Assembly (NCBI RefSeq): GCF_001418575.1
Contig: NZ_LIQR01000165.1
Span: 1 to 37,816, forward strand
Length of the DNA: 37,816 nt
Direction: 5' to 3'
DNA from: Peterkaempfera griseoplana
GTDB taxonomy: Bacteria; Actinomycetota; Actinomycetes; Streptomycetales; Streptomycetaceae
A program made the translations under genes and the position numbers. Shown in pieces: positions 7,356 to 37,816 of this stretch (within the stretch, counting starts at the first letter, position 1; every line of letters starts with the position of its first letter). Under the pieces are notes generated by a model that saw nothing but the letters and a program-made list of their open reading frames with translations, made no database searches and was not told where the DNA came from.

Positions 7356-10300
7356 TCAGTGCTGGCCGACAGCCCCGTGGCCGCGCGGCTGCACCGTCAT
7401 CGAGACCGGCACGGTGCCCGCGCCGTAGGGCCCGTCGATCTCGAATCCCAGCGACGCCGAGACGGTCCCCGGCCGGGCCGGCACCGCACCCCGGGCGTCC
7501 AGCCTGACCCGTACGGTCGCCTGCCGGCCCGGCTGGATGGTCAGCACGGTCCTGCTCTCCGACAGCCAGGGAACGTCCACCGGTTCCGCGGTGTCGTAGC
7601 CGGACAGCACCGAGACGGTCGCCAACGCGGACAGATCGGGACCTGTACCGCCGATGGCGTGGAAGCCCCCTGCCCCGACGACGCCGACCGCGTTGTTCCG
7701 CCCCTCCTGAGCGCCGGGCAGCGGGAACCACCAGTCCATCGCCGGGTCGTAGGCGTATGCCTGGCCGGTCACGTCCGAGGCGTTGGCCGTGAATCCACCG
7801 GAGACCAGCAGCCTTCCGTCGGCCACGCCGTACGCCGACTGGGCCATGTCGATCGGCAGGTCGGCGATCCGGGTCCAGGAGTCACGGGCAGGGTCGTAGA
7901 CGAAGGCATCCTTGACCTCCCGGCCTCCGGAACCGCCGCTGCTGAGGTTGGTCACGCCGCCGGCGCAGTAGAGCTTGCCGGCGATCGCGCCGCACGACGC
8001 TCCGTAGACGCGCTCAGGGTAGGAGTGGACCGCGCTCCACTTGTTCGTCCTGGGGTCGTAGACGCTGACGGTGGCGTGGAAGGCGTCCTCCGTGGTCATG
8101 CCGCCGACGGCATACAGTTTGCCGTCGAGCACCGCGGTACCGGCGCCCGCCAGTGCGTCGGGGTTGTCGGCTGCGATGGCCCAGGTGTCGGTGGCGGGGT
8201 CGTAGACCTGCGTCCTGGTCTCGATCCCGAGCGACGAGAAGTCCGGCGCGACCCAGTAGCCACCGGTGACATAGAACTTGCCGCCGATGAAGGCGCCGGA
8301 TGCGGATGCGACCGCAGAGGGTGCGTCGGCCTTCTGCCGCCAGACACGGCCGGCCTGGTCGTAGGCGTAGAACGCCGCCGTCGGTACGTAGGCGTCGACG
8401 CCCGAACCCAGGCCCGCGTACAGCGTGCCGTCACTGCTGCCGCCGACCATGCCGGAGCCCTCAGTGGGCAGGGACCCGGCCGCGGTCCAGGCCGGGGCCG
8501 CCGTGCCGGTGGACTCGTCGAGCTTCACCTTGAGGGGCGCGTCGCCGGTGTTGGTGAGGGTGAGGTCACGGGTCGCCGAACCCCCCTGCGCCACGGTCCC
8601 GCTGACCGGGCCGCCGAGCTTGAGCCGGCCGGCGTGCAGCGCCAGGTCGACGCCCGTGGTCCGGTCCGCGACCAGCTTCACCTTCTCCGAAGCCGTCTTG
8701 TAGAAGGGCATGGTCGCGGTGACTGACTGACGGCCCGTCAACGGGGAGAAGAACCAGTAGAAGCCGTCCTCACGGCCGGCACGTCCAGCCATGGGCGCAC
8801 TGAGCGTCGACTGCGCCGGCCCGTTCGCCACGGCCACGGTCGCACCGTCCATGGGCTTCGCGGTGTTGCCGTCGGTGATGTTCCCGACGACGAGGCCACC
8901 GGGCTGCTTGACGAGCTTCGCGCCACCCACCCGGACGTCGTACAGGAACCAGCCCGCTGCCGCGCCGGCCCCCCCGGTGTACTGCTGGTAGCGGAACTTG
9001 AGCCGTACGGAGACCGCCTTGCCGCTGTCGGGCAGTGCGAACCCGGCTCCGTTGTCGTACAGCCCGCTCTCCGACCAGCCCGTTGTCCAGGTCCTGCCGC
9101 CGTCCGTGCTGTACTCGACGGTTGCGAGGCCGCCGTTGACACGGGTGTTGAAGTACACGAACGGCGTCTCACCGGCCGGCACCTGGAAGTCGGGGGAGGT
9201 CAGCGAGGTGTCACCGGGCTTTCCACCGGTCCAGCCCTCCACATGTGCCTGACCGAAGTTCCCGTAGTTGAAGAAGCCGCGCTCGAAGAGCCAGGGGTCT
9301 CCCACCGCGGTGTCGACACTCCAGCCGGCCGGCGCCGTGGTTCCGTCGAAGGTCTCATTGCTGCCTTCTGCCTGCTGCGTGTAGCCGGGCGCGGAGCCGG
9401 ATTCGGACAGCAGCTGGGCGGTGAGACCGATGTCGTGGACGCTGTCCTTGGTCTTCGTCGTCACACTGGTGTCGCGCTCGGTGTAACCGCGGTAGTTGGC
9501 AGCGGCGTGCAGGGTGTAGTGGCCGTTCTCCGGCACCTGCACGGAGTACCGGCCGGTGACCGGGTCGCTGTAGACGGGCGCGAGAGGGGTGTTCTCGACC
9601 GTGACCTTGGCGTACAGCGGCCAGCCGTGCCCGGATGCGTCCGCGACGGTGCCGCTGACGGTCACCATCGGAGTGCCGGTCAGCTTGACGTCGGCCGTGC
9701 TGGTGGTGTCCGCGCTGACGGTGATGCCGTCCACCGACCGGTCGTCGTAGTCGAAGGCGCTGACAGCGATCTCGTACGACCCGGTCGACAACCGCATCCG
9801 GTAGGTGCCGTCGGAACCTGTGACCGCACTCGCCGTCGACGCACCGGTCACGCGGACCTCGGCGCCGGAGACCGGCTTGCCCGACGATCCGTCCGTGACG
9901 GTTCCACTGAGCAGGCCGGACGGTCCGCTGGAGAACGCGGCGGTCCCGTTCGGCGTCCCGAGGCCGGTGGGGCCGTCGTAACCGGGCCCCGCCTGGCACA
10001 GATAGGCGGGCTCGCAGGTGCCGTTGGAACCCGAGGTCACATCGTTGAGGCTGCCCGGGTGCGCATAGGGGAAGCTGTTGGGGTGCACACCGCTGGGAAG
10101 CGACCCGGCGAGCGCATAGGTCGCGGCGATGATCGGCGAGGCGGCGCTGGTACCGCCGTACTGCGCCCAGCCGGTGCCGTAGGTGGAACCGAAGGTGTCG
10201 TACACGGAGACACCGGTGACCGGATCGGCGACCGCCGAGACGTCGGCGACGGTGCGCTGTGCGCAGCCGGTGTCCTTCTGGAAAGCGGGCTTCGGCTGGA

Positions 10301-11588: not shown

Positions 11589-14405
11589 TCAGTCCAGACC
11601 CGCCTGTGTCACGCTCACCGCCAACGCGGTCCGGGACGTCACTCCGTGCTTGCGCATGGCGGACTTCAGCTGCGCGGCCACCGTGCTCGGCGACCGCGAC
11701 AACTCCTGCGCTATCTGACGGTTCGTCTTTCCTTGCAGCACCAGTCGCACGACCTCCAGCTCGCGCGGCGACAGCCTGCTCCCGTAGCCGCGCCGGCCGC
11801 CGCGCCACACCCCCCGAGCGGCCCGGGTGCAGCGCTCGGCGGCCTCCCGGGCCAGCGCCTCCTCGTGCGGCCGGGGCAGCTGCGACCACGCCCGGGCCGC
11901 CTCGCCCCACGCCCGGGCGGCCGCCTCGAACTCCCCCCGCGCCTCGACGCAGAGCGCCCGGCACTCCTCCAGCGCCGACCGTGCCGCCGGGGCGTCCCGC
12001 CCGAGGATCCCCTCCCCGAAGGCGGCGACGAACTGCTCCGCCTCCGTCAGCCGCCCGGCCGCCGCCAGCGCCGCCACCCGCACGGACGCCGTCTCCGTGG
12101 CCCAGACCCACATGGACTTGCCGGTGATCAGCCGTACGGAGTCCTCGGTGAGCGCGAGCGCTTCCTCGGCGTCCCCCGCGGAGAGCCGCAGCCGGGCATG
12201 GGCGGCGGCGGACTCCAGCCACAGGGCGATGATGCCGCGGCGCTCCCCCTCCTCGCTGATGGTCCGCAGCAGCTCTTCGAGCTCTTCGCCGCTCTCCGCC
12301 GCCGCCAGCCTCAGCTGGGCTCCCAGCAGCCGCGCCTCCAGCCGGCAGACCGGCACATCCGCCGTGTCCGCCCAGTGGTCGGCCCGTTCGGCCAGCCCCT
12401 GCCGTGCGCCGGTGAGGTAGTCCAGACGCAGCAGCGTCACCAGCGACATGATCCGGAGCACCTGCAGATCGTGGCGGCCCGCGACGTCGACGGCGCGGGT
12501 GAGGCGGACACGCGCCTCCGCGTACCGCCCCCACCGCATCGCCGCGTCGCCGACGTTCAGCTCGGCGCGGGCACGTTCGAGGGCGATCTGCGGTGTGGAC
12601 TCGTCGTCGCCCAGTTCCTCCGCGAGGGTCCAGCCCGACTCCTCACCCAGTTCGAGAAGCGCGGTCGTCCGGTTGACCAGCAGGCACAGCCGCTCGTGCG
12701 GAGCCAGTCCGGAGCCGGCCACGAACCGCTCGGCCCGGTCCAGCCAGTGCAGATGGGTGGCGGCCGGCCAGGGCCCGACCCACGGCAGACCGAGCGCGGT
12801 CATCGCCCAGGCGTCCACGAAGCTGCCCTCCCGGAGATCGGGTACGGCCAGCTCCAACTCGACCGCCGCGGCGGTGTAGTCGCCGAGGCTGAAGAGCACC
12901 CTCCCGAGCTGGCCGCGCACATCCGCGCGGTCGCGCGCGCCGAGCCGGTCCGTCTCCAGGACGGCGCGCAGGGCGGTCACGGCCTCCGCCCGCCGGGCAT
13001 AGTCGGTGAACGCCAGGAACGGCATCTTCCGTACCAGTGGAGCAACCGCCTCCGCGGGCAGCAGCGGTTCGGTGATCAGTTCGTGCAGCAGGGTGACGGC
13101 GGTGAGGTGGTCGCCGGAGGCGAGGGCGACATCCGCCGCCTGCTCGGTGTACTCGCACCACCGCGCCGTCTCACCGGCCTCCCGGAAGTGGTGGGCGAGA
13201 CGCCCGATCTGCCTCGGCCTCGCGGTCTCCAGGAGGACGGCGGCGCGCCGGTGGGCGGCCCGCCGCTCGGACGGCGGCACCCGGTCGTACACCGCCCGCG
13301 CGGCGAGTGCATGGCGGAAGGCGATCCGGCCGGGGCCTGAACCGTCCTCGATGAGCAGGCCGCTGACCAGGGCGTCGGAGACCGCGGCTGCGACCACGGG
13401 GTCGAGTACCGGGCTCGCGCCCTCCGCCAGTCCGCCGACCGCGCCCAGCATGCGCTCGTCGGCCGGGTCGCTCAGTACGGCGGCCGCCAGCAGCACCCGC
13501 TGGGCGTCCGCCCCGAGCCGCGCCACCCGTTCGGTGACGGCGTCCCGGATCGTCGGCGGCACGGCGATCTCACCGAGCGTGCGCCGCACCCATTCGCCGT
13601 CCCGCCGGACGATGTCCGCGCGGTCCCGCATCAGTCGAATGCACTCCTCCAGCACGAGCGGCACTCCCGCGGTCCGTTCGTGCAGGAAGGCTGCGAACGC
13701 GGCGGAGACCTGCTCGTCGTCCAGCACCGAGGAGACGAGCTCCGCGGTGTCCGCCACCGCGAGTCCGCCGAGGTCCACGCGCACACGGCTGGTTCCCGCG
13801 CCCGTCGGCCCCCGGGAGGAGAGACGGAGCAGCAGGGAGTCGGCGGCCACCTCCTCGGGGCGGTACGTCAGCACCAGGCTGAGCGGTTGCGGTCGCTGCG
13901 AGGCGAGGAACAGCAGCAGTTCCAGCGTCGCCTCGTCCGCCCAGTGCACGTCCTCGACGACCAGGATCCCGGTGCCGAGCCGGCCGAGCAGCTCCGCGAA
14001 GGCCCGGATCAGGCGGTGCCGGGCGGAGCCTGCGTCGGCCGGCGGCTCGGGGGCGGGCGGCAGGCCTTCCGCCCATTCGGGGAAGAGCGGCCGCAGCGTC
14101 CCGGCCAGCGCCGAAAGCCCCAGGTCCGCGATGTCGGCGCTGCTCGGCGCGGCCTGGCGGGCCGCGTCGACGATCGGGCCCAGGGTCAGCGCCTCACGGT
14201 ACGGCGGACAGACCGCCACCAGTGGGCGCGGCCGTTCCGGGGCGACGTCCGCCAGGGCCTCACGCACCAGGCGGCTCTTGCCGATACCGGCTTCACCCTC
14301 CACCAGGACGAGGGCCGGGCGTCGTCTCAGCGCGTCCGTCACGCGCCGCAGTTCGGCGTCGCGTCCGACGAAGCGGGTACTGTCCGGACCGGTACTCCGC
14401 TGCAC
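11589..14405 (-). CDS. LuxR family ATP-binding regulator (LAL/MalT type)
   Basis: A 938-residue transcriptional regulator. The N-terminal AAA domain has Walker A GEAGIGKS at residues 37-44 and Walker B GILVVEDVHWADEAT near residue 140. A long helical TPR-like middle follows. The C-terminal LuxR helix-turn-helix reads LSPRELEVVRLVLQGKTNRQ, IAQELSRSPSTVAAQLKSAM. Length fits the large-ATP-binding LuxR group. I start at GTG 14405 (GGAAGG 8-9 bases before it); a GTG at 14465 is an alternative adding 20 Arg-rich residues. These proteins usually activate nearby genes in response to an unknown ligand. The secreted protease immediately downstream on the same strand is the obvious candidate target. Confidence 0.9.
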   Translation of the reverse strand: MQRSTGPDSTRFVGRDAELRRVTDALRRRPALVLVEGEAGIGKSRLVREALADVAPERPRPLVAVCPPYREALTLGPIVDAARQAAPSSADIADLGLSALAGTLRPLFPEWAEGLPPAPEPPADAGSARHRLIRAFAELLGRLGTGILVVEDVHWADEATLELLLFLASQRPQPLSLVLTYRPEEVAADSLLLRLSSRGPTGAGTSRVRVDLGGLAVADTAELVSSVLDDEQVSAAFAAFLHERTAGVPLVLEECIRLMRDRADIVRRDGEWVRRTLGEIAVPPTIRDAVTERVARLGADAQRVLLAAAVLSDPADERMLGAVGGLAEGASPVLDPVVAAAVSDALVSGLLIEDGSGPGRIAFRHALAARAVYDRVPPSERRAAHRRAAVLLETARPRQIGRLAHHFREAGETARWCEYTEQAADVALASGDHLTAVTLLHELITEPLLPAEAVAPLVRKMPFLAFTDYARRAEAVTALRAVLETDRLGARDRADVRGQLGRVLFSLGDYTAAAVELELAVPDLREGSFVDAWAMTALGLPWVGPWPAATHLHWLDRAERFVAGSGLAPHERLCLLVNRTTALLELGEESGWTLAEELGDDESTPQIALERARAELNVGDAAMRWGRYAEARVRLTRAVDVAGRHDLQVLRIMSLVTLLRLDYLTGARQGLAERADHWADTADVPVCRLEARLLGAQLRLAAAESGEELEELLRTISEEGERRGIIALWLESAAAHARLRLSAGDAEEALALTEDSVRLITGKSMWVWATETASVRVAALAAAGRLTEAEQFVAAFGEGILGRDAPAARSALEECRALCVEARGEFEAAARAWGEAARAWSQLPRPHEEALAREAAERCTRAARGVWRGGRRGYGSRLSPRELEVVRLVLQGKTNRQIAQELSRSPSTVAAQLKSAMRKHGVTSRTALAVSVTQAGLD

Positions 14406-14690
14406 TCGGCCGCCTTCCGCATCACGCCCCGTCCTCCGGTACCGGAGACTCCGCCGGCCCCGCACGGCCCTGCGGGGACGGGGTGGTCGGCGAGGGCGTC
14501 GTCAGAGCGGCGTCAGAGGTGGTACGGGTCCGAGCGCCCGCGCGAACCATCCGGTTCCGGGAGCACCTGGCGAAATGTGTTCATCGATCCCGTCCTGCGG
14601 CTGTCTGCGAGGTGGGGCGGTTCGCACCGGGGTGCACGGACTCCGACCGGAATCCATGGAGCACGCAGGGACGCAGCGGGTACGCCGGAA

Positions 14691-15381: not shown

Positions 15382-16821
15382 CTACGCAGTACGTCGGTTC
15401 GGACCGCCGTCATGCCTGGTCGTGAGGTGAGGCGGGAACGCGCTGGCCACCATGGCGGTAATCACCACCACCCAGACTGCGGCGGCGACCCAGATTTCCC
15501 CGCGACCCAGCGTGGTCATCCACGACGTCCCGGTTGTACGTCCCAGTTCATGGGTGGTGACCCCGTACATGCCGATGGGGAACACCAGGTTCCACCAACC
15601 GAACTCGTAACGCAACGGAATCCGTCGCAGCACATGCCGCCATACGCCTAGAGCCAGCAGCAGCGGAATCAGCCAGCTGGAAAACGACCACAGGACGACG
15701 GACGACCCGGCGATGACCGAACGCGACGGCAGGATGCCCCCTGGGGGCAATTCGAGCAACCTCGCACCGGCGAGCACGATGATCGCCGCCGCACCCATGA
15801 AGATCCAGGCCGAAGTCATGAGATTCCCCGGCGCCACCGGTCGCACCAGTAGCCTGGCCAGGACGATCGCGGCGGTCAACAGGTACTGCATCAGTCCGAT
15901 GGCCCAGCACACCAAGGCCAGCAGCGGCAGCAGGTGGCCCGTGGTCTGCCGGCCCAGAGCGGCTGCCGCGACGGCCACCGACTCGGATCCCACCGCCCAG
16001 AGGAACCAGGTGCCGTTTACCTGGTCGATCGATGGGCCCCGTCTCGTATTGGCGATCAGGCCGAGGGGAATCCCGTAGCCCAGCAGCAGCCACCCCAGCG
16101 CCCCGAAGGCCAAGAACGCCTCGGCCGCTGCGGTATGGCCGTCCGGTACGAGGCGAGCAGCCAGCACATTGGAGGCGATGGCAATGGTGAGGAAGGCGAA
16201 TGCGCGCGGGCCGACGAAATCCGCGATGAACCGCTGCCGCCAGCGCACCAGTCGCCAGCCGTACGCAGGCAACAGCACCGCGAAACCGACAAGGCCGACC
16301 ACCAGCAGTGCCACGGAGGGGACGCCGACGCCGTTGATGTTCAGGGCGGTGGACACGATGGCTGTGCCCATGACGAACGCGCACGCCCCCGCATTGAGGT
16401 CCGCGACTGCGGAGGATGCAGCCGCACGGAATCCGTGTGGACGCGGATCAGGCTCGGGGCCGTCGGCACTGGTAAGCCATTCGGCGAGGACGGCGGCATG
16501 GCCGTGGTCCACATCCTCGGCAGCGGTCAGCAAGGTGAGCTTGCTGTGTCTGGCCAGGTCACGTAGACGGCCCGCTGCCGACTGGTGTCCAGCGTCCCCC
16601 AGTTCGGCGAGATAGCGGCGGCGGAACTCCGCAGAGCGGAGGGGCTCATGGCTGTACCAGCGTCGCAGTTCGGTGGATGGCGCGACATCGCCCAGCCACT
16701 CGTCGAGATGCGCGTCTTCCATGCTGATGCCCTGGGGCCAGACGCGGTCAACGAACACCCGCTTCCCGTCCTCGGGAGACGTCTGCTCATAGACTTTGCG
16801 ACAGGTCACCTGCTTGCCCAT
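15382..16821 (-). CDS. DUF488 domain fused to a TDT (SLAC1/TehA-like) transporter
   Basis: A 479-residue membrane protein in one uninterrupted frame. Residues 1-118 are a complete DUF488 domain, with RVFVDRVWPQGIS, VAPSTELRRWYSHEP and FRRRYLAELGD. After a short linker (119-135) residues 136-470 have ten hydrophobic spans, the number expected of the tellurite-resistance/dicarboxylate transporter (TDT) fold. Typical pieces are AGACAFVMGTAIVSTAL, LLLGYGIPLGLI, SSWLIPLLLALGVWRHV and WWNLVFPIGMYGVTTHELG. The family exports or conducts anions such as dicarboxylates or sulfite; the substrate here is unknown. The start ATG has GAAAGG 7 bases before it. The DUF488 half would lie on the cytoplasmic side if the first span starts there. 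Confidence 0.85.
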   Translation of the reverse strand: MGKQVTCRKVYEQTSPEDGKRVFVDRVWPQGISMEDAHLDEWLGDVAPSTELRRWYSHEPLRSAEFRRRYLAELGDAGHQSAAGRLRDLARHSKLTLLTAAEDVDHGHAAVLAEWLTSADGPEPDPRPHGFRAAASSAVADLNAGACAFVMGTAIVSTALNINGVGVPSVALLVVGLVGFAVLLPAYGWRLVRWRQRFIADFVGPRAFAFLTIAIASNVLAARLVPDGHTAAAEAFLAFGALGWLLLGYGIPLGLIANTRRGPSIDQVNGTWFLWAVGSESVAVAAAALGRQTTGHLLPLLALVCWAIGLMQYLLTAAIVLARLLVRPVAPGNLMTSAWIFMGAAAIIVLAGARLLELPPGGILPSRSVIAGSSVVLWSFSSWLIPLLLALGVWRHVLRRIPLRYEFGWWNLVFPIGMYGVTTHELGRTTGTSWMTTLGRGEIWVAAAVWVVVITAMVASAFPPHLTTRHDGGPNRRTA

Positions 16822-21735: not shown

Positions 21736-23312
21736 GCAGCGTCGCCACATCGGCCACCCCGCCCCCAACGACACCCGGCACGTCCGGGGAGATCCTGCGG
21801 ATGGAGGGGGTACGCAAGACCTTCCCGGGTGTCGTGGCCCTCGACCACGTCGACTTCGACCTCAGGCGCGGCGAGGTGCACGTCCTGCTCGGAGAGAACG
21901 GCGCGGGCAAGAGCACCCTGATCAAGATGCTGTCGGGCGCCCACCGCCCCGACCAGGGACAGATCCTGGTGGACGGCGAGCCGGTGCGCATCAACAGCGC
22001 CCAGGCCGCCGAGCGGCTCGGCATCGCCACCATCTACCAGGAGTTCAACCTGGTCCCCGAGCTGAGCGTCGCCGAGAACATCTTCCTCGGCCGTCAGCCG
22101 CGCCGCCTCGGCCTGGTGGACCGCCGCCGGATGAACGCGGACGCGGCCGAACTGCTGGCCCGGGTCGGCGTGGACGTCGCGCCGCAGACCCGGGTCGGGG
22201 ACCTGGGCATCGCCCGGCTGCAGATGGTGGAGATCGCCAAGGCGCTCAGCCTCGACGCCCGCGTCCTGATCATGGACGAGCCGACCGCGGTGCTCACCAC
22301 CGACGAGGTCCAGAAGCTCTTCCGGATCGTGCGCGCCCTGCGCGCCGACGGGGTCGGCGTGGTATTCATCACCCACCACCTCGACGAGATCGCCGAACTG
22401 GGCGACCGCGTCACCGTCCTGCGCGACGGCCGCAGCATCACCCAGGTGCCGGCCGACACCCCGCAGGACGAACTGGTGCGGCTGATGGTCGGCCGCAGCA
22501 TCGAGGACCAGTACCCGCGGGAGCAGGGCGAGGTCGGCGAACCGCTGCTGCGCGTCACCGGCCTCACCCGCGACGGCGCCTTCTCCGACATCAGCTTCGA
22601 GGTGCGGGCCGGCGAGGTCGTCGGCCTGGCCGGACTGGTCGGCGCGGGGCGCACCGAGGTGGTCCGCGCGGTCTTCGGCGCCGACTCCTACGACTCCGGC
22701 ACGGTGGAGGTGATGTCCGCCCGGCTGCGCCGCGGGGACGTCAACGCCGCGATGGACGCCGGGATCGGCCTGGTGCCGGAGGACCGCAAGGGACAGGGAC
22801 TGGTCCTCGAGGCGTCCATCGAGGAGAACCTCGGCCTGGTCACCCTGGGGCGGCGCACCCGCTACGGGTTCGTCGACCGGGCCGACCAGCGCCGCAGCGC
22901 GGAACGGATGGCCGGCTCCCTCAAGGTCCGCATGGCCGGCCTCGACCAGCACGCGGGCACCCTCTCCGGTGGCAACCAGCAGAAGCTGGTCATCGGCAAG
23001 TGGCTGCTCGCCGACTCCAAGGTCCTCATCCTCGACGAACCGACCCGCGGCATCGACGTGGGCGCCAAGGTCGAGATCTACCAGCTGGTCAACCGGCTGA
23101 CGGCGTCCGGACACGCCGTCCTCATGGTCAGCAGCGACCTGCCCGAGGTGCTCGGCATGAGCGACCGCGTGCTGGTCATGGCCCAGGGCCGGATCACCGG
23201 CGAAGTGAAGGCAAGCGAAGCGACCCAGGACGCCGTCATGGCACTGGCCGTTACGGACCCGGCGGCAAAGGAGCCGTCGGACAGGAAGGTGGAGGTCTCC
23301 CGTGGCCACTGA
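21732..23312 (+). CDS. rbsA: Ribose ABC transporter ATPase RbsA
   Basis: A 526-residue tandem ATPase that powers sugar import. The first half has Walker A GENGAGKST (residues 54-62), signature-region LGIARLQMVEIAKALS and Walker B VLIMDEPTAVL. The second half has the altered loop GLAGLVGAGRTEVVRAVFG, the signature LSGGNQQKLVIGKWL and VLILDEPTRGIDVG, exactly the asymmetry known for RbsA/XylG/MglA proteins. The start is TTG 21732, with AAAGGAG 6 bases upstream, and overlaps the lacI stop. Its end overlaps the next gene by 11 bases. Ribose as substrate is inferred from rbsK and rbsD in the same operon. Confidence 0.92.
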   Translation: MSSVATSATPPPTTPGTSGEILRMEGVRKTFPGVVALDHVDFDLRRGEVHVLLGENGAGKSTLIKMLSGAHRPDQGQILVDGEPVRINSAQAAERLGIATIYQEFNLVPELSVAENIFLGRQPRRLGLVDRRRMNADAAELLARVGVDVAPQTRVGDLGIARLQMVEIAKALSLDARVLIMDEPTAVLTTDEVQKLFRIVRALRADGVGVVFITHHLDEIAELGDRVTVLRDGRSITQVPADTPQDELVRLMVGRSIEDQYPREQGEVGEPLLRVTGLTRDGAFSDISFEVRAGEVVGLAGLVGAGRTEVVRAVFGADSYDSGTVEVMSARLRRGDVNAAMDAGIGLVPEDRKGQGLVLEASIEENLGLVTLGRRTRYGFVDRADQRRSAERMAGSLKVRMAGLDQHAGTLSGGNQQKLVIGKWLLADSKVLILDEPTRGIDVGAKVEIYQLVNRLTASGHAVLMVSSDLPEVLGMSDRVLVMAQGRITGEVKASEATQDAVMALAVTDPAAKEPSDRKVEVSRGH

Positions 23313-25263
23313 CACGATGGAAAGCCGCGGAGGCGTGGCCGGCGGTTCCGGCCTGCGCCGGCTGCTGCTCGACAACGGGGCGCTCGCCGCCCTCCTGGTC
23401 CTGGTGGTGGCGCTGTCGGTGCTCTCCGGCAGCTTCCTGACCACCGGCAACCTGCTCAACGTGGGTGTCCAGGCCGCGGTCGTCGCGATCCTGGCCTTCG
23501 GCATGACCTTCGTCATCGTCGCGGCCGGCATCGACCTGTCCGTCGGCTCGGTGGCCGCACTGTCGGCGACCGTGCTCGCCTGGCTGGCCACCACCTCCGG
23601 CGTGCCGGTCTGGATAGCGGTGATCCTGGCGGTGGCCACCGGCGTCGCCAGCGGCCTCGTCAGCGGGGCACTGATCGCCTTCGGACGGCTGCCCTCCTTC
23701 ATCGCCACCCTCGCGATGCTCTCGGTCGCCCGCGGCCTGTCCCTGGTGATCTCCCAGGGCAGCCCGATCGCCTTCCCGCACTCCGTCTCCGCGCTCGGCG
23801 AGACCATCGGCGGCTGGCTCCCGGTCCCGCTGCTCGTGATGATCGCGATGGGCCTGGTCGCCGCCCTCATCCTCGGCCGCACCTACCTCGGCCGCTCCAT
23901 GTACGCCATCGGCGGCAACGAGGAGGCGGCCCGCCTCTCCGGCATCCGTGTCAAGCGCCAGACGCTGGCCATCTACGCGCTCTGCGGCCTGTTCGCCGCC
24001 GTCGCCGGTGTCGTCCTCGCCTCCCGGCTCTCCTCCGCCCAGCCCGAGGCCGCCAACGGCTACGAACTGGACGCCATCGCGGCCGTGGTCATCGGCGGGG
24101 CCAGCCTCTCCGGCGGCAAGGGCAAGGCGTCCGGCACCTTCGTCGGCGCCCTGATCCTCGCCGTGCTGCGCAACGGCCTCAACCTGCTCAATGTCTCCTC
24201 CTTCTGGCAGCAGGTCGTCATCGGCGTCGTCATCGCCCTCGCGGTGCTGCTCGACACGCTGCGCCGCCGCGGCTCCCGCACCCCGACCGCGGCCGGCGCC
24301 ACCGCCGGGGCCCCGCAGGGCGGCCGGCGCAACCTTCGCGGCAACGTCCTCGGCGCGGTCGCGGTCATCGCCGCGGTCGCCCTGGTGGTCGGTGTGAACG
24401 CCGCCCGCTCCGGCTCCAACGCGAAGATCAAGGTGGGCCTGACGCTCTCCACCCTCAACAACCCGTTCTTCGTCTCGGTCCGCTCCGGCGCCCAGGCGGA
24501 GGCCAAGGCCCTGGGCGTCGACCTCACCGTGACGGACGGCAACAACGACGCCTCCGCCCAGGCCGACCAGGTGTCCAACTTCCTCAGCCAGGGCGACCAG
24601 GCCGTGATCCTCAACCCGGTGGACTCCGACGCCGCCGCGCCCTCGGCGAAGCTGGCCCTGAAGTCCAAGGTCCCGGTCATCGCGGTGGACCGCGGCGTGA
24701 CCGGAGTCCCGATCTCCAGCCTCGTCGCCTCCGACAACGTCGCCGGCGGCAGGCTCGCCGCCCAGGCGCTGGCCGAGCAGATCGGCGGCCACGGCACCAT
24801 CGTGGTCCTCCAGGGCACCGCGGGCACCTCCGCGGCCACCGAGCGCGAGCAGGGCTTCAAGCAGGGCATCTCCGCCTACCCCGGCATCAGGATCGCCGCC
24901 GAGCAGCCGGCCGACTTCGACCGCACCAAGGGCCTGGACGTCATGGGCAACCTGCTGCAGGCGCACCCGGACATCAGCGGTGTCTTCGCCGCCAACGACG
25001 AGATGGCGCTCGGCGCGATCAAGGCGCTGGGCAGCAAGGCCGGCACCAGCGTCAAGGTCGTCGGCTTCGACGGCGAGGCGGACGGCCTGGCCGCGGTCAA
25101 GGCCGGCAAGGAGGCCGCCGACATCGCCCAGCGCCCGTCGCAGCTCGGCAAGCTCGCCGTGGACAACGCGGTGCGCGCCGTGAAGGGCGAGAAGGTCACC
25201 GGTGACGTCAAGGTGGCGGTCGAGGTCGTCACCGTGAAGAACGTCGCCGGCTTCAAGCCCTGA
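23302..25263 (+). CDS. rbsCB: Ribose ABC permease-substrate-binding fusion (RbsC-RbsB)
   Basis: A 653-residue fusion. Residues 1-325 are an RbsC-type permease with eight or more hydrophobic spans, carrying MTFVIVAAGIDLSVGSVAAL, YAIGGNEEAARLSGIRV and ELDAIAAVVIGGASLSGGKG. A linker rich in Arg, Gly and Ala and one more membrane span (NVLGAVAVIAAVALVVGVNA, near residues 348-368) lead into an RbsB-type binding protein: KVGLTLSTLNNPFFVSVRSG, AVILNPVDSD, AVDRGVTGV, FAANDEMALGAIKAL and VGFDGEADGL. The binding domain is thus tethered outside the membrane without a lipobox. The GTG start overlaps the rbsA stop, with GGAGG 7 bases before it. Such fusions replace separate rbsC and rbsB genes in some actinobacteria. 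Confidence 0.92.
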   Translation: MATDTMESRGGVAGGSGLRRLLLDNGALAALLVLVVALSVLSGSFLTTGNLLNVGVQAAVVAILAFGMTFVIVAAGIDLSVGSVAALSATVLAWLATTSGVPVWIAVILAVATGVASGLVSGALIAFGRLPSFIATLAMLSVARGLSLVISQGSPIAFPHSVSALGETIGGWLPVPLLVMIAMGLVAALILGRTYLGRSMYAIGGNEEAARLSGIRVKRQTLAIYALCGLFAAVAGVVLASRLSSAQPEAANGYELDAIAAVVIGGASLSGGKGKASGTFVGALILAVLRNGLNLLNVSSFWQQVVIGVVIALAVLLDTLRRRGSRTPTAAGATAGAPQGGRRNLRGNVLGAVAVIAAVALVVGVNAARSGSNAKIKVGLTLSTLNNPFFVSVRSGAQAEAKALGVDLTVTDGNNDASAQADQVSNFLSQGDQAVILNPVDSDAAAPSAKLALKSKVPVIAVDRGVTGVPISSLVASDNVAGGRLAAQALAEQIGGHGTIVVLQGTAGTSAATEREQGFKQGISAYPGIRIAAEQPADFDRTKGLDVMGNLLQAHPDISGVFAANDEMALGAIKALGSKAGTSVKVVGFDGEADGLAAVKAGKEAADIAQRPSQLGKLAVDNAVRAVKGEKVTGDVKVAVEVVTVKNVAGFKP

Positions 25264-28281: not shown

Positions 28282-31068
28282 TCACCGCCGGTCCAGGTCC
28301 TCCAGGGCGTCACGCAGCGCCGCCCTGGAGGCGATCCCGAGCTTGGGAAACACCTGGTAGAGGTGGCCGCTCACGGTGCGGTGCGAGAGGTGGAGCTTCT
28401 CGGCGATCTGCTTGTTGGTGAGTCCGGAGGCGGCGAGGTGGGCGACCTCCCACTCCTGCGGCGTGAGCCCGACGGAACCCGAAGCGCGCCGGACCGCCCA
28501 CCCGGCCGCCTTCAGCTCGCGTCCGGCCCGGTCCGCCCACGGACGGGCGCCAAGCTCCTCGAAGATGCCCAGCGCCGTCACCAGCGCCTCTCTGGCAGCG
28601 GTGGTCATCTTCGCCTTCCGCAGCCGTTCGCCGTAAGCGAGGGTCACCCGCCCCCGTTCGAAGGGCCAGTCGTCGATGCCCGGAAGCGACAGCGTCTGAT
28701 CGAACAGCGCGGTCGCCTCGTCGTGCGCCGTGGCCGCCATGGCGGAGGCGCCGCCGACGAGCAGCGCGAGGCGGGGCGACACGCTCGCGGTCCCCGCTTC
28801 CCTGACGGCCCGCACATGGGCGGTCGCCGCCGCCTCGCGGCGGGTGCGCACGGCCGCTTCCACCAGGTCCATCACCACCCAGAGCGCATGGGGGACGTAG
28901 CGCGCCAGCGTGCCTGCGGGGCTGATGAACTCCGCATGACGGAAGGCGCTCTCGAAGTCCCCTTCCGCCACCGCGGCCAGTACCCGGATGTGCGCGGCCG
29001 CGGTCATCATCTGACCCGCGCCGCGGGCGACGGCCCAGGACGTCATCGCGTCGGCCGTCTCCGCCGCGGGACCGAAGTCACCGCGGGCCGCCGCGACCAT
29101 GGCCTTCTCGTACCGGAAGTACCAGGCGTAGAAGGGGTACTCGACCTGCTCCGTCAGCAGGAGTCCCTCGTCGGCCAGGCGGATCGTCTCGTCCCACCGG
29201 CCGGTGTTGAACGCGTCCTGGCACAGGAGCGGAAGCACCGCCAGCTTCTTGACCGACAGGCCCGCGTCCTGTCCCTGGCGCCAGATGCGGCGGGACGCGT
29301 CACGCGCTCGGTGCAGCCTGTCCACATAGACGCCAGCGGTGCCGATGCGGACGATCCTCCCGGGGTCGCTCTCATGGACCAGCCCCGCGCACAGTTCGTC
29401 CAGGCCGCGCAGCGCCGCGGCGGTGACCCGCGCCGGATCGCCGAACACCGCCGCGGACACCGTCAGCACCGCGGGCACCTCGGGCAGACGCTCCACGATC
29501 CTGTGGAACGCTTGCCACAGTTCGGGCCGGCCGCTGAAGTGGCACAGCAGCATCAGCACATTGAGGGCTTCGTCGAGCGCGGAGTCGTAGGCATCGCGCC
29601 CGTGGAGCGTCGCCTCGATGGCGTTGACGATGACCTGGTGGGCCATGTCGATGTCCCCGGTGCCGTTGAGTATCAGGTAGACCGCGGTGGCCGCCGCATA
29701 GAGGGAGGCGTGGTCGTCGGCGCCGGCCTGCCGGACCCCTTCGAGGAGCTGGGAGGCGCTGACCAGTTCGCCGGTCGCGTCGGCGCCGATGAAGGCCGCC
29801 TGCGCCAGTCGGCGGGCGCGGTCGGGCGCCGCGGGGCTCAGATGTCCGGCTCGGGTCAGGGCCCGGATCGCCGCGAACGAGTCACCGCGCGCCACGACCG
29901 TGCGGGCGCTGCACTCAAGGAGGGCGGCGACCTCCTCATCGGGTTCCACGGCCGCTTCGCCCAGATGCCACGCCCGGCGTTCGAGCTGGTCGTGCAGCAC
30001 TTCGGCGATGGCGCGGTGGGCCGCGCGGCGCTCAGCGGTGGTGGAGGCGCCGACGATCGCCGAGCGGATCAACGGATGCCGGAAGTCCAGGCGGTGGTCG
30101 CTCTCGTCGATCCGGACCAGGTCGTCCTGTTCGGCGGGGCCGAGATCCACGAGCGAGGCCCGTACGGAGGGGTGCTGCCCCGCGCGTTGCAGGACGGCCA
30201 GCTCGCCCGTCCCGTCCAGCGCTGCGATCAGCAGCAGACGGCGAGTGGCGCGGGGCAGGCCGGCCACGCGCGCGACGAAGAGGGCTTCCAGCCGCCGGCC
30301 CAGAGGCAGCACCTCGGGGAGGCGTTCCAGCGCGGCGCGCTGGGGTCCGGACAAGGCGGTGGGCAGCTCCAGCAGCGCGAGGGGGTTGCCGTGGGCGGCG
30401 GCGACGACCCTGTCAACGACGCTCCCGGCCAGGCCCGGATGACGGAAGCCGACGAGTCGGCGCGCCGACCGGTGGTCCAGCGGCAGGACCTCGTGTTCGG
30501 GCAGGTTCAGAGGGTCGAGGAAGCCCCCGCTTCCCCTGCGGGCAGCCGCCAGGACGGTGATCCGGGTGCCGGTGAGCCGGCGGGCCACCAGGCCGAGGAT
30601 CACCGCGCTGGCCCGGTCGATCCAGGGAAGGTCGTCCACGACCAGCAGCAGCGGCTGCTGCGCGGCCGCACCACGCAGCAGCGCCAGGGTGGCGTTGGCC
30701 ACGACGAGGCTCGGCGGTGGCGGGCCGGTACCGAAACCCAGGGCCACCCGCAACGCCTCGCGATACAGCTCGTCGAGCGCCTCGACCTCCTCGTGCAGCG
30801 GAAGAAGCAGCTGGTGGAGACCGGAGTACGTCATATCCGACTCGAACTGCGCACCCACCGCCCACAGGACCCGGGTCCCCGTCGCCGCGGCGTGCCGGGC
30901 GACCGCGTTCAGCAGGGCGGTCTTGCCGACCCCGGCCTCACCCGAGAGCAGCAGCGCCCCCGGGGCGTCCGCCGGACGGTCGAGGAGGTCGTCGATCAGC
31001 TCGAGGTCCTGCCGCCGCCCGACCAGACTCCCCGGTTCGCCGTCGTGCGAACGGTGATCGCGGTTCAC
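28282..31068 (-). CDS. LuxR family ATP-binding regulator (LAL/MalT type)
   Basis: A 928-residue regulator of the same class as the one at 11.6-14.4 kb but only distantly alike. Walker A is GEAGVGKT (residues 43-50) and Walker B is LLLVVDDLPWIDRAS near residue 135. A long alpha-helical repeat region follows, and the LuxR helix-turn-helix is at the end: LTPQEWEVAHLAASGLTNKQ, IAEKLHLSHRTVSGHLYQVF. The start GTG 31068 was chosen because GGGAG lies 6 bases before it. An ATG at 31095 and a frame open much further upstream exist, but that extra sequence is Arg/Pro/Gly-rich and not protein-like. Its target and ligand are unknown; the hemerythrin gene is the nearest downstream gene. Confidence 0.9.
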   Translation of the reverse strand: MNRDHRSHDGEPGSLVGRRQDLELIDDLLDRPADAPGALLLSGEAGVGKTALLNAVARHAAATGTRVLWAVGAQFESDMTYSGLHQLLLPLHEEVEALDELYREALRVALGFGTGPPPPSLVVANATLALLRGAAAQQPLLLVVDDLPWIDRASAVILGLVARRLTGTRITVLAAARRGSGGFLDPLNLPEHEVLPLDHRSARRLVGFRHPGLAGSVVDRVVAAAHGNPLALLELPTALSGPQRAALERLPEVLPLGRRLEALFVARVAGLPRATRRLLLIAALDGTGELAVLQRAGQHPSVRASLVDLGPAEQDDLVRIDESDHRLDFRHPLIRSAIVGASTTAERRAAHRAIAEVLHDQLERRAWHLGEAAVEPDEEVAALLECSARTVVARGDSFAAIRALTRAGHLSPAAPDRARRLAQAAFIGADATGELVSASQLLEGVRQAGADDHASLYAAATAVYLILNGTGDIDMAHQVIVNAIEATLHGRDAYDSALDEALNVLMLLCHFSGRPELWQAFHRIVERLPEVPAVLTVSAAVFGDPARVTAAALRGLDELCAGLVHESDPGRIVRIGTAGVYVDRLHRARDASRRIWRQGQDAGLSVKKLAVLPLLCQDAFNTGRWDETIRLADEGLLLTEQVEYPFYAWYFRYEKAMVAAARGDFGPAAETADAMTSWAVARGAGQMMTAAAHIRVLAAVAEGDFESAFRHAEFISPAGTLARYVPHALWVVMDLVEAAVRTRREAAATAHVRAVREAGTASVSPRLALLVGGASAMAATAHDEATALFDQTLSLPGIDDWPFERGRVTLAYGERLRKAKMTTAAREALVTALGIFEELGARPWADRAGRELKAAGWAVRRASGSVGLTPQEWEVAHLAASGLTNKQIAEKLHLSHRTVSGHLYQVFPKLGIASRAALRDALEDLDRR

Positions 31069-31887
31069 GAACGTCTCCCAGTGACTTCGGTCCATGTGGG
31101 TGCGGGCTGCACGGCGTCGGCCCACCCCGCTGGTGCGGCACTCCCCCGCCGCGGAAAGCGGCCACGGGGGCCGCCCGCAGACGCCGCCCACGGAGGCGGA
31201 AGCCGGTGGACGACTTCCGAGCACGGGCCCCGGACCGGACCCTCGTCCGCTCCGGCCGCTCAGGCGCCCGTACTTCTCCTGAACGCCCGCCGCCGGCGTT
31301 TCGTGCCAGGTCCGGGTAGCTGTCCGGGCTGCCGTCCGGCCGGTGGCCGGGGTCGCGTACCGGGAGCCGCCTCCTTGGGGGAGGCGCGCCTCCGGACACC
31401 CTGGACGGGAACCGCCGCCGCCCGGTCCCGCTGCCGCCGTCCGACGCGGGAGGCCCGTCCCGGCCGGTGACAGCCGGAAACGGCTGCTGCATGAACATGC
31501 CGCACGCGATCGCGGGCGGGCGCGCGGCTTCGCCGCGTCGACGGCTGCATCGGGCCCCCGCGACCTCCCGACCATCCCAGCTGTCCCGCAGGCCGTGACA
31601 CGTGTCCTGCCGCCCGTTTCGACCCGCCCCCGCGGAGCGAGGGCTGGTCACCGGCGCCCGCGGTCCGCAGTTGCCGGACAGGGGTGGTCCTGTCATGCAC
31701 GCCAAGGGCAGTGGCCAGACCCGCGCGGGCAGGAACCATGGCTGCGGGCAGCCCCACTCTCCACTGGTCGCTGGCGCTCAACGGTCCACTTCACGAAACC
31801 GCGGGGCTGAGGGCCGACCAGCCGCCACGACTCCCGAACATGCGCCCGCACCCGCCCAGTAGCCTGTACACAAAGAGAGGGGTGGGC
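31069..31887. other. 819-base region upstream of the second LAL gene
   Basis: No gene is supported. A perfect 12-bp palindrome GAGGCGCGCCTC lies at 31381-31392. The frame that extends the LAL ORF through part of this region shows no family likeness. The promoters of the LAL gene and of the small membrane protein must lie at its two ends. Confidence 0.4.
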
Positions 31888-36492: not shown

Positions 36493-36631
36493 ACACGTGT
36501 CTCGGATGCCACGGCGTGGTGGCCAGGCCAGGTAGGGGGCGCGCCCTGAGTCGGCCGGCGCGGGTGAACCGGATCGCCTCCCGCTCAGAACGCACTGCGT
36601 CAGCGTCGAGGAGATGCAGACACGTGTCTCG
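36493..36631. repeat. Direct repeats ACACGTGTCTCG
   Basis: Identical 12-base copies at 36493-36504 and 36620-36631, each containing the palindrome ACACGTGT. They lie in the gap upstream of the ABC-F leader. They could be sites for a transcription factor. Confidence 0.5.
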
Positions 36632-36682
36632 CCGGGGTGGCCGCCCCCGGAAAATCCCTGGGGTCGGGAGGGCGAGCACTGG

Positions 36683-36688
36683 TACGCT
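36683..36688 (+). promoter_or_regulatory. Putative extended -10 of the ABC-F transcript
   Basis: TGGTACGCT gives TACGCT with an upstream TG, 38 bases before the leader ORF. No -35 consensus lies 17 bases upstream, so an extended -10 promoter is the likely reading. Confidence 0.4.
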
Positions 36689-36726
36689 GTTCGGCGACGC
36701 AGACCGTGTATCGAGGAGTGGCAGAC

Positions 36727-36756
36727 ATGCTGGGTGAGGACGACATCTCCGGGTGA
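36727..36756 (+). CDS. Nine-codon leader ORF of the ABC-F gene
   Basis: ATG 36727 with GAGGAG 8 bases upstream encodes MLGEDDISG and stops at TGA 36754-36756. It ends 127 bases before the ABC-F start. Very short ORFs in this position are the drug sensors of attenuated resistance genes: a ribosome stalled here by an antibiotic changes folding of the RNA that follows. The strong ribosome binding site and the competing hairpins downstream support that reading. The peptide itself matches no leader I know. Confidence 0.65.
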   Translation: MLGEDDISG

Positions 36757-36830
36757 GATCCGGATCTGAGGGCCATCGGGCGCGCTGATCAGCGCAGCCG
36801 TGGCGTCTTGTCGTCGTACCCGCTTCCCCG

Positions 36831-36845
36831 TCTGCCCAGGGCAGA
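36831..36845 (+). promoter_or_regulatory. Antiterminator-like hairpin
   Basis: TCTGCCC-A-GGGCAGA is a perfect 7-bp stem. It uses the same GGGCAG (36839-36844) that forms the left side of the terminator, so the two cannot form at once. The one-base loop is sterically tight, so the actual pairing may be shorter or involve upstream partners. Confidence 0.45.
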
Positions 36846-36866
36846 GGTCTCTTCCTGCCCCGTTTT
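36839..36866 (+). terminator. Attenuator terminator upstream of the ABC-F gene
   Basis: GGGCAG (36839-36844) and CTGCCC (36855-36860) pair over a 10-base loop and are followed by CGTTTT, an intrinsic-terminator layout. The T run ends 17 bases before the ABC-F start. It would stop transcription when no ribosome disturbs the leader. Confidence 0.6.
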
Positions 36867-36883
36867 CCCTTGAGGTCGTCTCC

Positions 36884-37816
36884 ATGTCCGACGTCGCCGT
36901 CGTCTGCTCGAACCTGTCCTTCTCCTGGCCCGACGACACCCCGGTCTTCGCGGGCCTGTCCTTCACCCTGACCGCCGGCCGCACGGGCCTGGTGGCCCCC
37001 AACGGCTCGGGCAAGAGCACCCTGCTCAAGCTGATCGCCGGCGAGCTGAAGCCCGCCGCCGGCTCGGTGTCCGTCGCCGGCACGCTCGGCTACCTCCCGC
37101 AGAGCCTCCCCCTGACCGGCGATCTCACCGTCGCCCAAGTCCTCGGCGTCGCCGAGGTCATCCGCGCCCTGGACGCCGTCGAGTCCGGAGACGTCAGCGA
37201 GCAGCACTTCGCCACCATCGGCGACGACTGGGACATCGAGGAACGCACCCGCGCCCAGCTCGACCGGCTCGCCCTGGCCGATCTCGCCCTGGACCGCACC
37301 CTCGGCACCCTCAGCGGCGGCCAGGTCATCACGCTCGGCCTCGCCGCCCAGCTGCTCAAACGCCCCGACGTACTGCTGCTGGACGAGCCGACCAACAACC
37401 TCGACCTGCAAGCCCGGCACCGGCTCTACGACGCGCTGACGGACTTCACCGGCTGCCTGCTGCTGGTCAGCCACGACCGCGCACTGCTCGACCGCATGGA
37501 CCGCACCGCCGAACTCGGCAGCGGTGAACTGCGCCTGCATGGCGGCAACTTCACGCAGTACGAGCAGGCCGTGCGCACCGAGCAGGAGGCCGCCGAGAAG
37601 AACGTCCGCAACGCCGAGCAGGAGCTGAAGCGGGAGAAGCGGGAGATGCAGCAGGCCCGCGAACGCGCCGAGCGCCGGGCGAGCAACGCCGCGCGCACCC
37701 TCAAGAGCGCCGGTCTGCCCCGGATCTTCGCCGGCACCATGAAGCGCGGCGCGCAGGAGTCCGCCGGCCGCGCCGGCCAGACGCACGCCGCCCGCGTCAG
37801 CGAGGCCCGGGCGCGG
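36884..37816 (+). CDS. ABC-F ATPase, ribosome-protection type (3' truncated by window edge)
   Basis: The first 311 residues of a soluble tandem ATPase without membrane spans. Domain 1 has Walker [10 protein letters not shown] (residues 38-46), the Q-loop GYLPQSLPL, signature LSGGQ (143-147), Walker [13 protein letters not shown] (164-173) and the switch His in [11 protein letters not shown]. An interdomain linker rich in Glu, Arg and Lys follows from about residue 222 ([20 protein letters not shown]), ending [20 protein letters not shown]. This is the ribosome-contacting P-site tRNA interaction motif region of ABC-F proteins. The second ATPase domain lies beyond the window. The ATG has TTGAGG 9 bases upstream. 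Its leader suggests induction by ribosome-targeting drugs. Which drug it counters cannot be read from sequence. Confidence 0.88.

Follow-up and report, generated by a model that had tools for sequence, protein, structure and literature searches.

A probable tiaA-type attenuation leader before an ABC-F gene of Peterkaempfera griseoplana, and its covarying fold in relatives

Introduction

What switches on an ABC-F ATPase gene that sits at the very end of a contig, and is the drug that does so a new one? The question is raised by the 37,816-nucleotide stretch of Peterkaempfera griseoplana DNA analysed here (NCBI RefSeq assembly GCF_001418575.1, contig NZ_LIQR01000165.1; hereafter the window), in which a TiaA-type ABC-F gene starts with the ATG at 36884 and runs off the contig after its first 311 codons (36884-37816). 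A first-pass annotation, made from the sequence alone, had described the preceding 200 bases as a drug-responsive attenuation leader for which neither the inducing drug nor the stall codon would have been described before. All the elements that it named are present, on the forward strand like every leader feature below. An extended -10 element, TGGTACGCT (36680-36688), is expected to set transcription going near 36694, which would give a 5' untranslated region (5'UTR) of about 190 nucleotides (nt). A Shine-Dalgarno (SD) sequence, GAGGAG (36713-36718, also seen in the leader alignments), precedes a nine-codon upstream open reading frame (uORF), ATG CTG GGT GAG GAC GAC ATC TCC GGG TGA, encoding MLGEDDISG and a stop (36727-36756). 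Two palindromes, AGATCCGGATCT (36756-36767) and GCGCTGATCAGCGC (36782-36795), follow, and then a hairpin, H4 (36839-36860), a run of four T (36863-36866) and the ABC-F start.

We consider it very probable that this is an attenuation leader of the tiaA type, in which a ribosome halted at the uORF start codon by a lincosamide, streptogramin A or pleuromutilin (LSAP) drug would open a helix, H1, and thereby allow the ABC-F protein to be made. Judged by homology, the leader is a functional member of a kind already in print, so its drugs and its stall codon would already be known. Beyond the printed account, we describe a structure that covaries among relatives, give evidence against a simple U-tailed terminator and find the leader in use before a second type of ABC-F gene.

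Relationship to published leaders

A literature text search for the peptide family returned one paper printing MVGDDDISG (PMC12421871), and a whole-word search for SCO0636 returned that paper alone. Koberska et al. (mBio 2025, PMC12421871) describe tiaA (SCO0636) of Streptomyces coelicolor, an ARE5 ABC-F gene that confers resistance to tiamulin and pristinamycin IIA and contributes to lincosamide resistance. Its 5'UTR of 194 nt carries the uORF tiaAL, which encodes MVGDDDISG. Lincosamides, streptogramin A and pleuromutilin are reported there as inducers and erythromycin is reported not to be one, and a toeprint places the drug-stalled ribosome at the uORF start codon. The authors report terminator and antiterminator forms of the 5'UTR; only their translational reporter was inducible and their transcriptional one constitutive, a result that they found inconsistent with the predicted transcription attenuation and for which they suspected the strong ribosome binding site of the reporter. 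This orthologue supports the idea of a drug-responsive uORF leader before the window gene; it also takes away the supposed novelty, both drugs and start-codon stall having been published.

The uORF peptide family is common to the window and S. coelicolor, and the two 5'UTRs are of similar length (about 190 nt as predicted in the window against 194 nt in PMC12421871). The downstream ABC-F genes are of one type, and the window protein falls in the TiaA clade, in both cases judged through orthologues other than SCO0636 itself. Differences are that the window copy reads ATG CTG (MLGE...), has the T4 run after H4 and precedes a gene start that is present twice in its genome. In this second occurrence, promoter, leader and ABC-F start are duplicated (window 36566-37816 and G000:C54, L226, motif at 7630), with 98.1% identity over 1252 bases and differing 5' flanks; the two contigs break off at one codon, in the manner of an assembly repeat.

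Ribosome-mediated attenuation has been described for other ABC-F genes too. According to PMC10201436, the cplR leader of Clostridioides difficile resembles the present one in its uORF-dependent induction by pleuromutilin and lincosamide, in a 5' hairpin that holds the uORF and in that a poly-U mutant is still inducible, so that translational attenuation suffices; it differs in its three-codon uORF, MRI, its genuine poly-U terminator and an SD inside the terminator hairpin. The vmlR leader of Bacillus subtilis, with the uORF MIN, also attenuates an ABC-F gene through the ribosome, but with a different uORF and RNA (PMC10201436). The same is true of lmrC in Streptomyces lincolnensis, whose uORF partly overlaps the terminator (PMC8546547).

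Conservation of the leader and identity of the gene

Taken by itself, the leader is inconspicuous. A scan of the window against Rfam returned no family at the gathering score, a consensus scan at the leader found neither a sigma-70 promoter nor a T-tailed terminator, and the leader alone (36695-36884) had a fold z of -1.48, with 14 of 200 shuffled sequences folding equally well. Since the isolated fold is unremarkable and the consensus scans are empty, the case rests on comparison with relatives. The fold z and the consensus scans are also what could be said for a chance assembly of short, functionless motifs.

A blastn search with positions 36670-36890 against 394 genomes of the family Streptomycetaceae matched the leader in 111 of them; a few of the weakest matches are spurious (e.g. 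L192/L193) and one, L155, is decayed. One of these genomes (L125) shares its leader with Streptomyces sp. HmicA12 (L022). At the genus level, represented by three genomes including the source, the remaining two had no leader. The motif GAYGACATHTCNGGNTGA was present in 26 of 394 class genomes, with a reversed control at 0 in every row shown. Counting both copies of the window genome, 25 of its 27 places precede an ABC-F gene, 24 of them one of the same type and one (L218) a different ABC-F; the remaining two (L194 and L199) look like chance matches. The comparison in all drew on 127 distinct leaders in front of this ABC-F type, of which 101 belong to the family and 26 to other families. This conservation, together with the covariation described below, refutes chance, to which we attach practically no probability.

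The uORFs follow the pattern M-x-x-[D/E]DDISG, and the window carries, 5' of its ABC-F start, one that fits the stricter form M-[V/A/L]-G-[D/E]-D-D-I-S-G-stop. MLGEDDISG itself occurs in the two copies of the source genome only, and the tiaAL nonapeptide MVGDDDISG in 17 of the 101 family leaders. An extended -10 element, TGnTAnn(n)T, lies 30-58 nt 5' of the uORF start in 71 of these 101 leaders (1.2 expected) and in 14 of the 26 from outside the family (0.4 expected). The first-pass annotation had staked its reading on conservation in orthologues, and alignment of their leaders indeed finds uORF and hairpins conserved.

The leader also goes with the gene. In a comparison of named loci that covered the best 80 of 591 confirmed loci, the uORF was found before 14 of 20 ABC-F genes at least 60% identical to that of the window and before none of 60 below 60%. 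Loci bearing it, among these 80, belong to Micromonospora, Amycolatopsis, Saccharopolyspora, Lentzea, Pseudonocardia, Mycolicibacterium, Paractinoplanes and Streptomyces. Of the six loci at or above 60% identity in which the motif was absent, five bear a recognisable variant uORF and the sixth tiaA-like locus, L018, has no recognisable one. The window protein is 66-76% identical to 13 named uORF-bearing orthologues outside the family (same 80 loci) and 69-88% identical (median 82) to 99 other uORF-fronted genes of the family. An ABC ATPase domain is detected in it; its score against NF000355 (antibiotic-resistance ABC-F) is 193 bits, against a cut-off of 380, on a partial protein of 311 residues.

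Three loci depart from this arrangement. L155 (genome G312) has a decayed leader with TAG as its stop, and the stretch covered there gave no match to ABC-F. In L175 (G186), the leader is intact and the ABC-F gene apparently lacks most of the first ATPase domain, with an in-frame jump after about 10 codons. In G377 (L174 560-1401; L224 from 3061), an intact DDISG uORF with its stop-codon hairpin is followed 256 nt on by a large open reading frame (ORF) for prephenate dehydratase, which suggests a remnant or a re-used leader without an adjoining ABC-F gene.

A nested fold supported by covariation

Eighty of the 101 family leaders were aligned; the 21 left out are L084, a near copy of the window, and 20 leaders with at least 140 bases from uORF stop to ABC-F start. 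Helices were named by hand from one row, L085, and then counted against shuffled and slid versions. As naming helices from a single sequence favours them in the slide control, and as shuffles do not keep relatedness, swap tests were added, in which segments are exchanged between leaders. RNAalifold on the 80-row alignment returned 14 pairs only, a low yield for which gaps in the variable 3' half are the probable reason.

When the leader of the window is folded alone and without constraints, the best structure has all the helices at once. H0 joins the 5' end (36696-36716, in the parts 36696-36698, 36702-36705 and 36711-36716) to 36868-36880, a segment that holds the ABC-F SD, GAGGTC (36872-36877). 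H1 pairs GGCAGAC (36720-36726), immediately 5' of the uORF start codon, with GTCTGCC (36830-36836), whose last six bases (36831-36836) we call arm1. Within the uORF (36732-36743), GGGT (36732-36735) and GACGA (36739-36743) are the 5' arms of H1b and H1c, and their 3' arms lie in 36811-36821 (TCGTC, 36811-36815, for H1c; ACCC, 36818-36821, for H1b). H2 is the uORF stop-codon hairpin (36748-36764), in which TCCGGG (36748-36753) pairs with TCCGGA (36759-36764) and the UGA lies in the loop. Both palindromes of the first-pass annotation are where it placed them. In the best fold, the first does not pair with itself: the partner of its TCCGGA is the TCCGGG of codons 8-9. H3 is the central hairpin (36772-36804; GCCA/TGGC, CGG/CCG and the apex 36782-36786/36791-36795). 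H4 pairs GGGCAG (36839-36844) with CTGCCC (36855-36860) 5' of the ABC-F ribosome binding site, as a terminator or a barrier.

Covariation in the 80 relatives supports one nested fold that includes both the uORF-start helix and the 36839-36860 hairpin. Over its 36 pairs, 91.3% of cells are paired and 17 pairs have changed on both sides; it scores 0.181 for covariation, where shuffles give 0.131 ± 0.004 (0 of 500 reaching it) and slid versions 0.070 at most. Cells with double changes number 45 in H1 (18.8 in shuffles) and 28 in H4 (9.0). In the relatives, H1 extends into the uORF start codon, and the first base of that codon covaries with the base opposite: among 74 rows with letters, the pair is G-C in 30, A-U in 25 and G-U in seven, and 12 are unpaired. 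In H1b, 83.6% of cells are paired, and in H1c, which is nearly invariant and shows little covariation, 96.7%. The sequence T[CT]GTC is found 3' of the uORF in 92 of the 101 family leaders (29.4 expected) and in 22 of the 26 others (6.1 expected). In the window row, two of the six alignment pairs of H3 are mismatched, and the window pairs there in a shifted register.

Swapping partners between leaders gave z values for own against swapped partners of -11.1 for H4, -9.2 for H3, -9.1 for H1 and, less clearly, -5.4 for pairing of the 5' end to the region of the ABC-F SD, so that H0 has moderate support for its part upstream of the uORF SD. With swaps restricted to nearest relatives, p was 2e-5 for H4, 0.0013 for H3, 0.009 for H1 and, for the 5' end with the SD, 0.014 in the best sub-segment and 0.075 over the whole. 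In an unbiased scan for five-pair stems, H4 headed the ranking, followed by H3 and then by a G-U-rich register (36730/36814); H2 was fourth and H1c ninth.

Proposed mechanism and level of control

In the mechanism that we favour, the RNA would be held without drug in this nested structure, with H1, H1b and H1c tying the uORF start and codons to 36811-36836 and with H2, H3 and H4 formed within and beside it, and little ABC-F would be made. A lincosamide, streptogramin A or pleuromutilin would, as in the orthologue, freeze the ribosome at the uORF start codon; with an assumed footprint of about 36713-36743, the ribosome would cover and open H1, H1b and H1c. The opening of H1 would act as the switch after which the ABC-F ribosome-protection protein is made. 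In this scheme, the drugs, the start-codon stall and the induction of protein come from the orthologue, and the homology, the conservation and the pairings from the window.

Folding with the start footprint masked is in part consistent with this mechanism. The region from -16 to +2 of the ABC-F start became more open on average, from 0.409 to 0.497, a difference given without a significance test; openness was 0.485 with codon 6 masked and 0.343-0.388 with masks at the stop codon and further down. Several results weigh against the mechanism. In the equilibrium fold, the start mask did not melt H4 (mean 0.84 to 0.82), did not form the alternative pairing of arm1 with arm2 (36840-36845) at full length (0.02 to 0.03) and left the ABC-F SD hexamer no more open (0.277 to 0.265); with H4, arm1:arm2 and SD all unchanged, simple folding reproduces no step from an open H1 to expression. 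The footprint at codon 6 acts much like that at the start codon, and masking thus does not single out the latter. Moreover, the start-codon partner is an alignment gap in the window row, where the pair is missing; H1b and H1c hardly vary, so that conservation is what speaks for them; with Bonferroni correction for 18 tests, H4 and H3 survive, and H1 (0.009) and the 5' end with the SD (0.014) fail. Finally, the unbiased scan does not have H1 in its list of 25 stems, probably because it counted gaps as unpaired. Both equilibrium switch models, terminator melting and SD release, were negative in these masked folds.

The published work left it open whether tiaA is controlled at transcription or at translation. 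Classical transcription attenuation, close to the antiterminator and T-tailed terminator of the first-pass annotation, would have the stalled ribosome free arm1, which would pair with arm2 and block H4 as a terminator. The arms could pair in most relatives (83.7% of cells), and lmrC is controlled in this way (PMC8546547); the terminator and antiterminator forms reported for tiaA (PMC12421871) point in the same direction. When transcripts were truncated directly 3' of arm2, a mask on the start codon increased arm1:arm2 pairing by over 0.2 in 40 of 79 leaders (one of the 80 rows has no usable arm2), against 38 with codon 6 masked, 20 with the stop codon and four with the middle. Here, too, masking does not separate the stall site of the first-pass annotation from the start codon, the effects at codon 6 and at the start being of similar strength. 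This rise is partly built into the test, the mask removing the other partner of arm1, and in the window itself it is small (0.70 to 0.83). Nor do the two arms coevolve: 37 of 500 shuffles reach their score, own partners are no better than swapped ones (z 0.08), and the nearest-relative p is 0.15. As for the terminator, four or five T within the ten bases after H4 occur in 21 of the 80 relatives, mostly scattered; a T4 run is absent from 79 of the 80, the window being its sole bearer, and the longest T run is 0 or 1 in 54, so that the conserved U tract expected after an intrinsic terminator was not found. An unconserved T4 and two arms without coevolution make a plain terminator switch doubtful, and the constitutive transcriptional reporter of tiaA, with the reservation of its authors about the ribosome binding site, also stands against it. 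We regard transcription attenuation as a real contender that falls somewhat on the improbable side.

The constitutive transcriptional and inducible translational reporters of tiaA (PMC12421871) fit an output at translation, for which the poly-U mutant of cplR (PMC10201436) provides a precedent. We infer, with a confidence only a little better than even, that the output of the leader lies mainly at ABC-F translation rather than at transcription termination at H4. The covarying pairs name the bases that bear on this choice: the uORF start with arm1, H4, and the 5' end with the ABC-F SD.

A frozen peptide and a probable RNA constraint

The first-pass annotation had expected stalling inside the uORF, where Glu-Asp-Asp is followed by Ile. 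A peptide-specific stall of this kind could draw on the near invariance of D-D-I-S-G (119 of 120 rows, under a search pattern that allowed I/V/L and S/T) and on the Ile codon, which neither H1c nor H2 includes. All 119 DDISG uORFs have Ile-7, the variant L007 has V there, and the pairs do not explain this residue. The orthologue's toeprint (PMC12421871) lies at the start codon, however, and the freeze extends to codon choice. In the same 119 uORFs, TCC encodes Ser-8 in 111 and GGG encodes Gly-9 in 115. The usual glycine codon of such genomes is GGC. This fixed choice of TCC and GGG points to a constraint from RNA pairing. The two codons form H2, whose mean energy is -10.47 against -6.50 with shuffled flanks in the family and -10.92 against -6.37 elsewhere. 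Leader by leader, this energy ranks with the best 5% of shuffles in 49 of the 101 in the family and in 18 of the 26 others. Wherever codon 9 ends in A, the facing base is U (3/3), and the codons of Asp-5 and Asp-6 form H1c.

Relatives with differing peptides (MAGDVDISG, MVGELDISGVTRL, MVCEDDVVG and MVVEDDIEG) also speak against a stalling sequence. One of them, L013, has GTC as codon 5 and a matching change in the partner strand, pairing better with its own than with those of 124 of the 127 other leaders; in the four other variant leaders no compensation of the changed uORF codons was seen, so that it is clear in one of five. Stalling within the peptide is therefore highly unlikely in our judgement, and a new stalling peptide was rejected as a candidate. 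The covarying pairs explain at least part of the freeze of the peptide, although the drug stops the ribosome before any peptide is made.

The same leader before a second type of ABC-F gene

At six loci, five in the family (L137, L144, L176, L177 and L184) and one in another family (L218), the same leader precedes a second type of ABC-F gene, 35-39% identical to that of the window. Its best NCBIfam match is TlrC/CarA/OleB/SrmB, with 455 and 451 bits for two full-length proteins, below the cut-off of 800. Over 177-179 nt, the leaders of L137, L144 and L218 share 80-85% identity with the closest leaders of the TiaA type, and those of L176, L177 and L184 give shorter or weaker matches. In L218, seen also as L221 977-2849 (G679), the leader is followed by a 34-codon ORF (1126-1230) with a tiaA-like start, whose TGA overlaps the GTG start (1227) of the second, TlrC/CarA-like gene. 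This arrangement looks like leader capture, with possible translational coupling. No report of the second type behind this leader was found in the literature searched, Data S4 of PMC12421871 lying outside it.

Tentatively, and in the knowledge that it is more likely to fail than to hold, we propose that the tiaA leader acts as a portable drug sensor, its RNA unfolding at the uORF start codon and its output lying at translation, and that it has been captured more than once by TlrC/CarA/OleB/SrmB-like ABC-F genes, the capture in L218/L221 leaving the tiaA-like 34-codon ORF behind.

Other genes in the window

Elsewhere in the window, a single ORF at 15382-16821 (reverse strand) combines an N-terminal DUF488 with a C-terminal SLAC1 anion-channel domain. 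Another, at 23302-25263 (forward strand), fuses a BPD_transp_2 permease with a periplasmic sugar-binding domain and has a PfkB kinase ORF next to it. Two large LuxR-type regulators with AAA domains are encoded at 11589-14465 and 28282-31575, both on the reverse strand.

Implications

If the proposal of a portable sensor is true, the leader at L218/L221 would respond to one class of drug by switching on a different protector. The presence of this leader before a second type of ABC-F gene suggests an exchange of sensors and protectors among actinobacteria.
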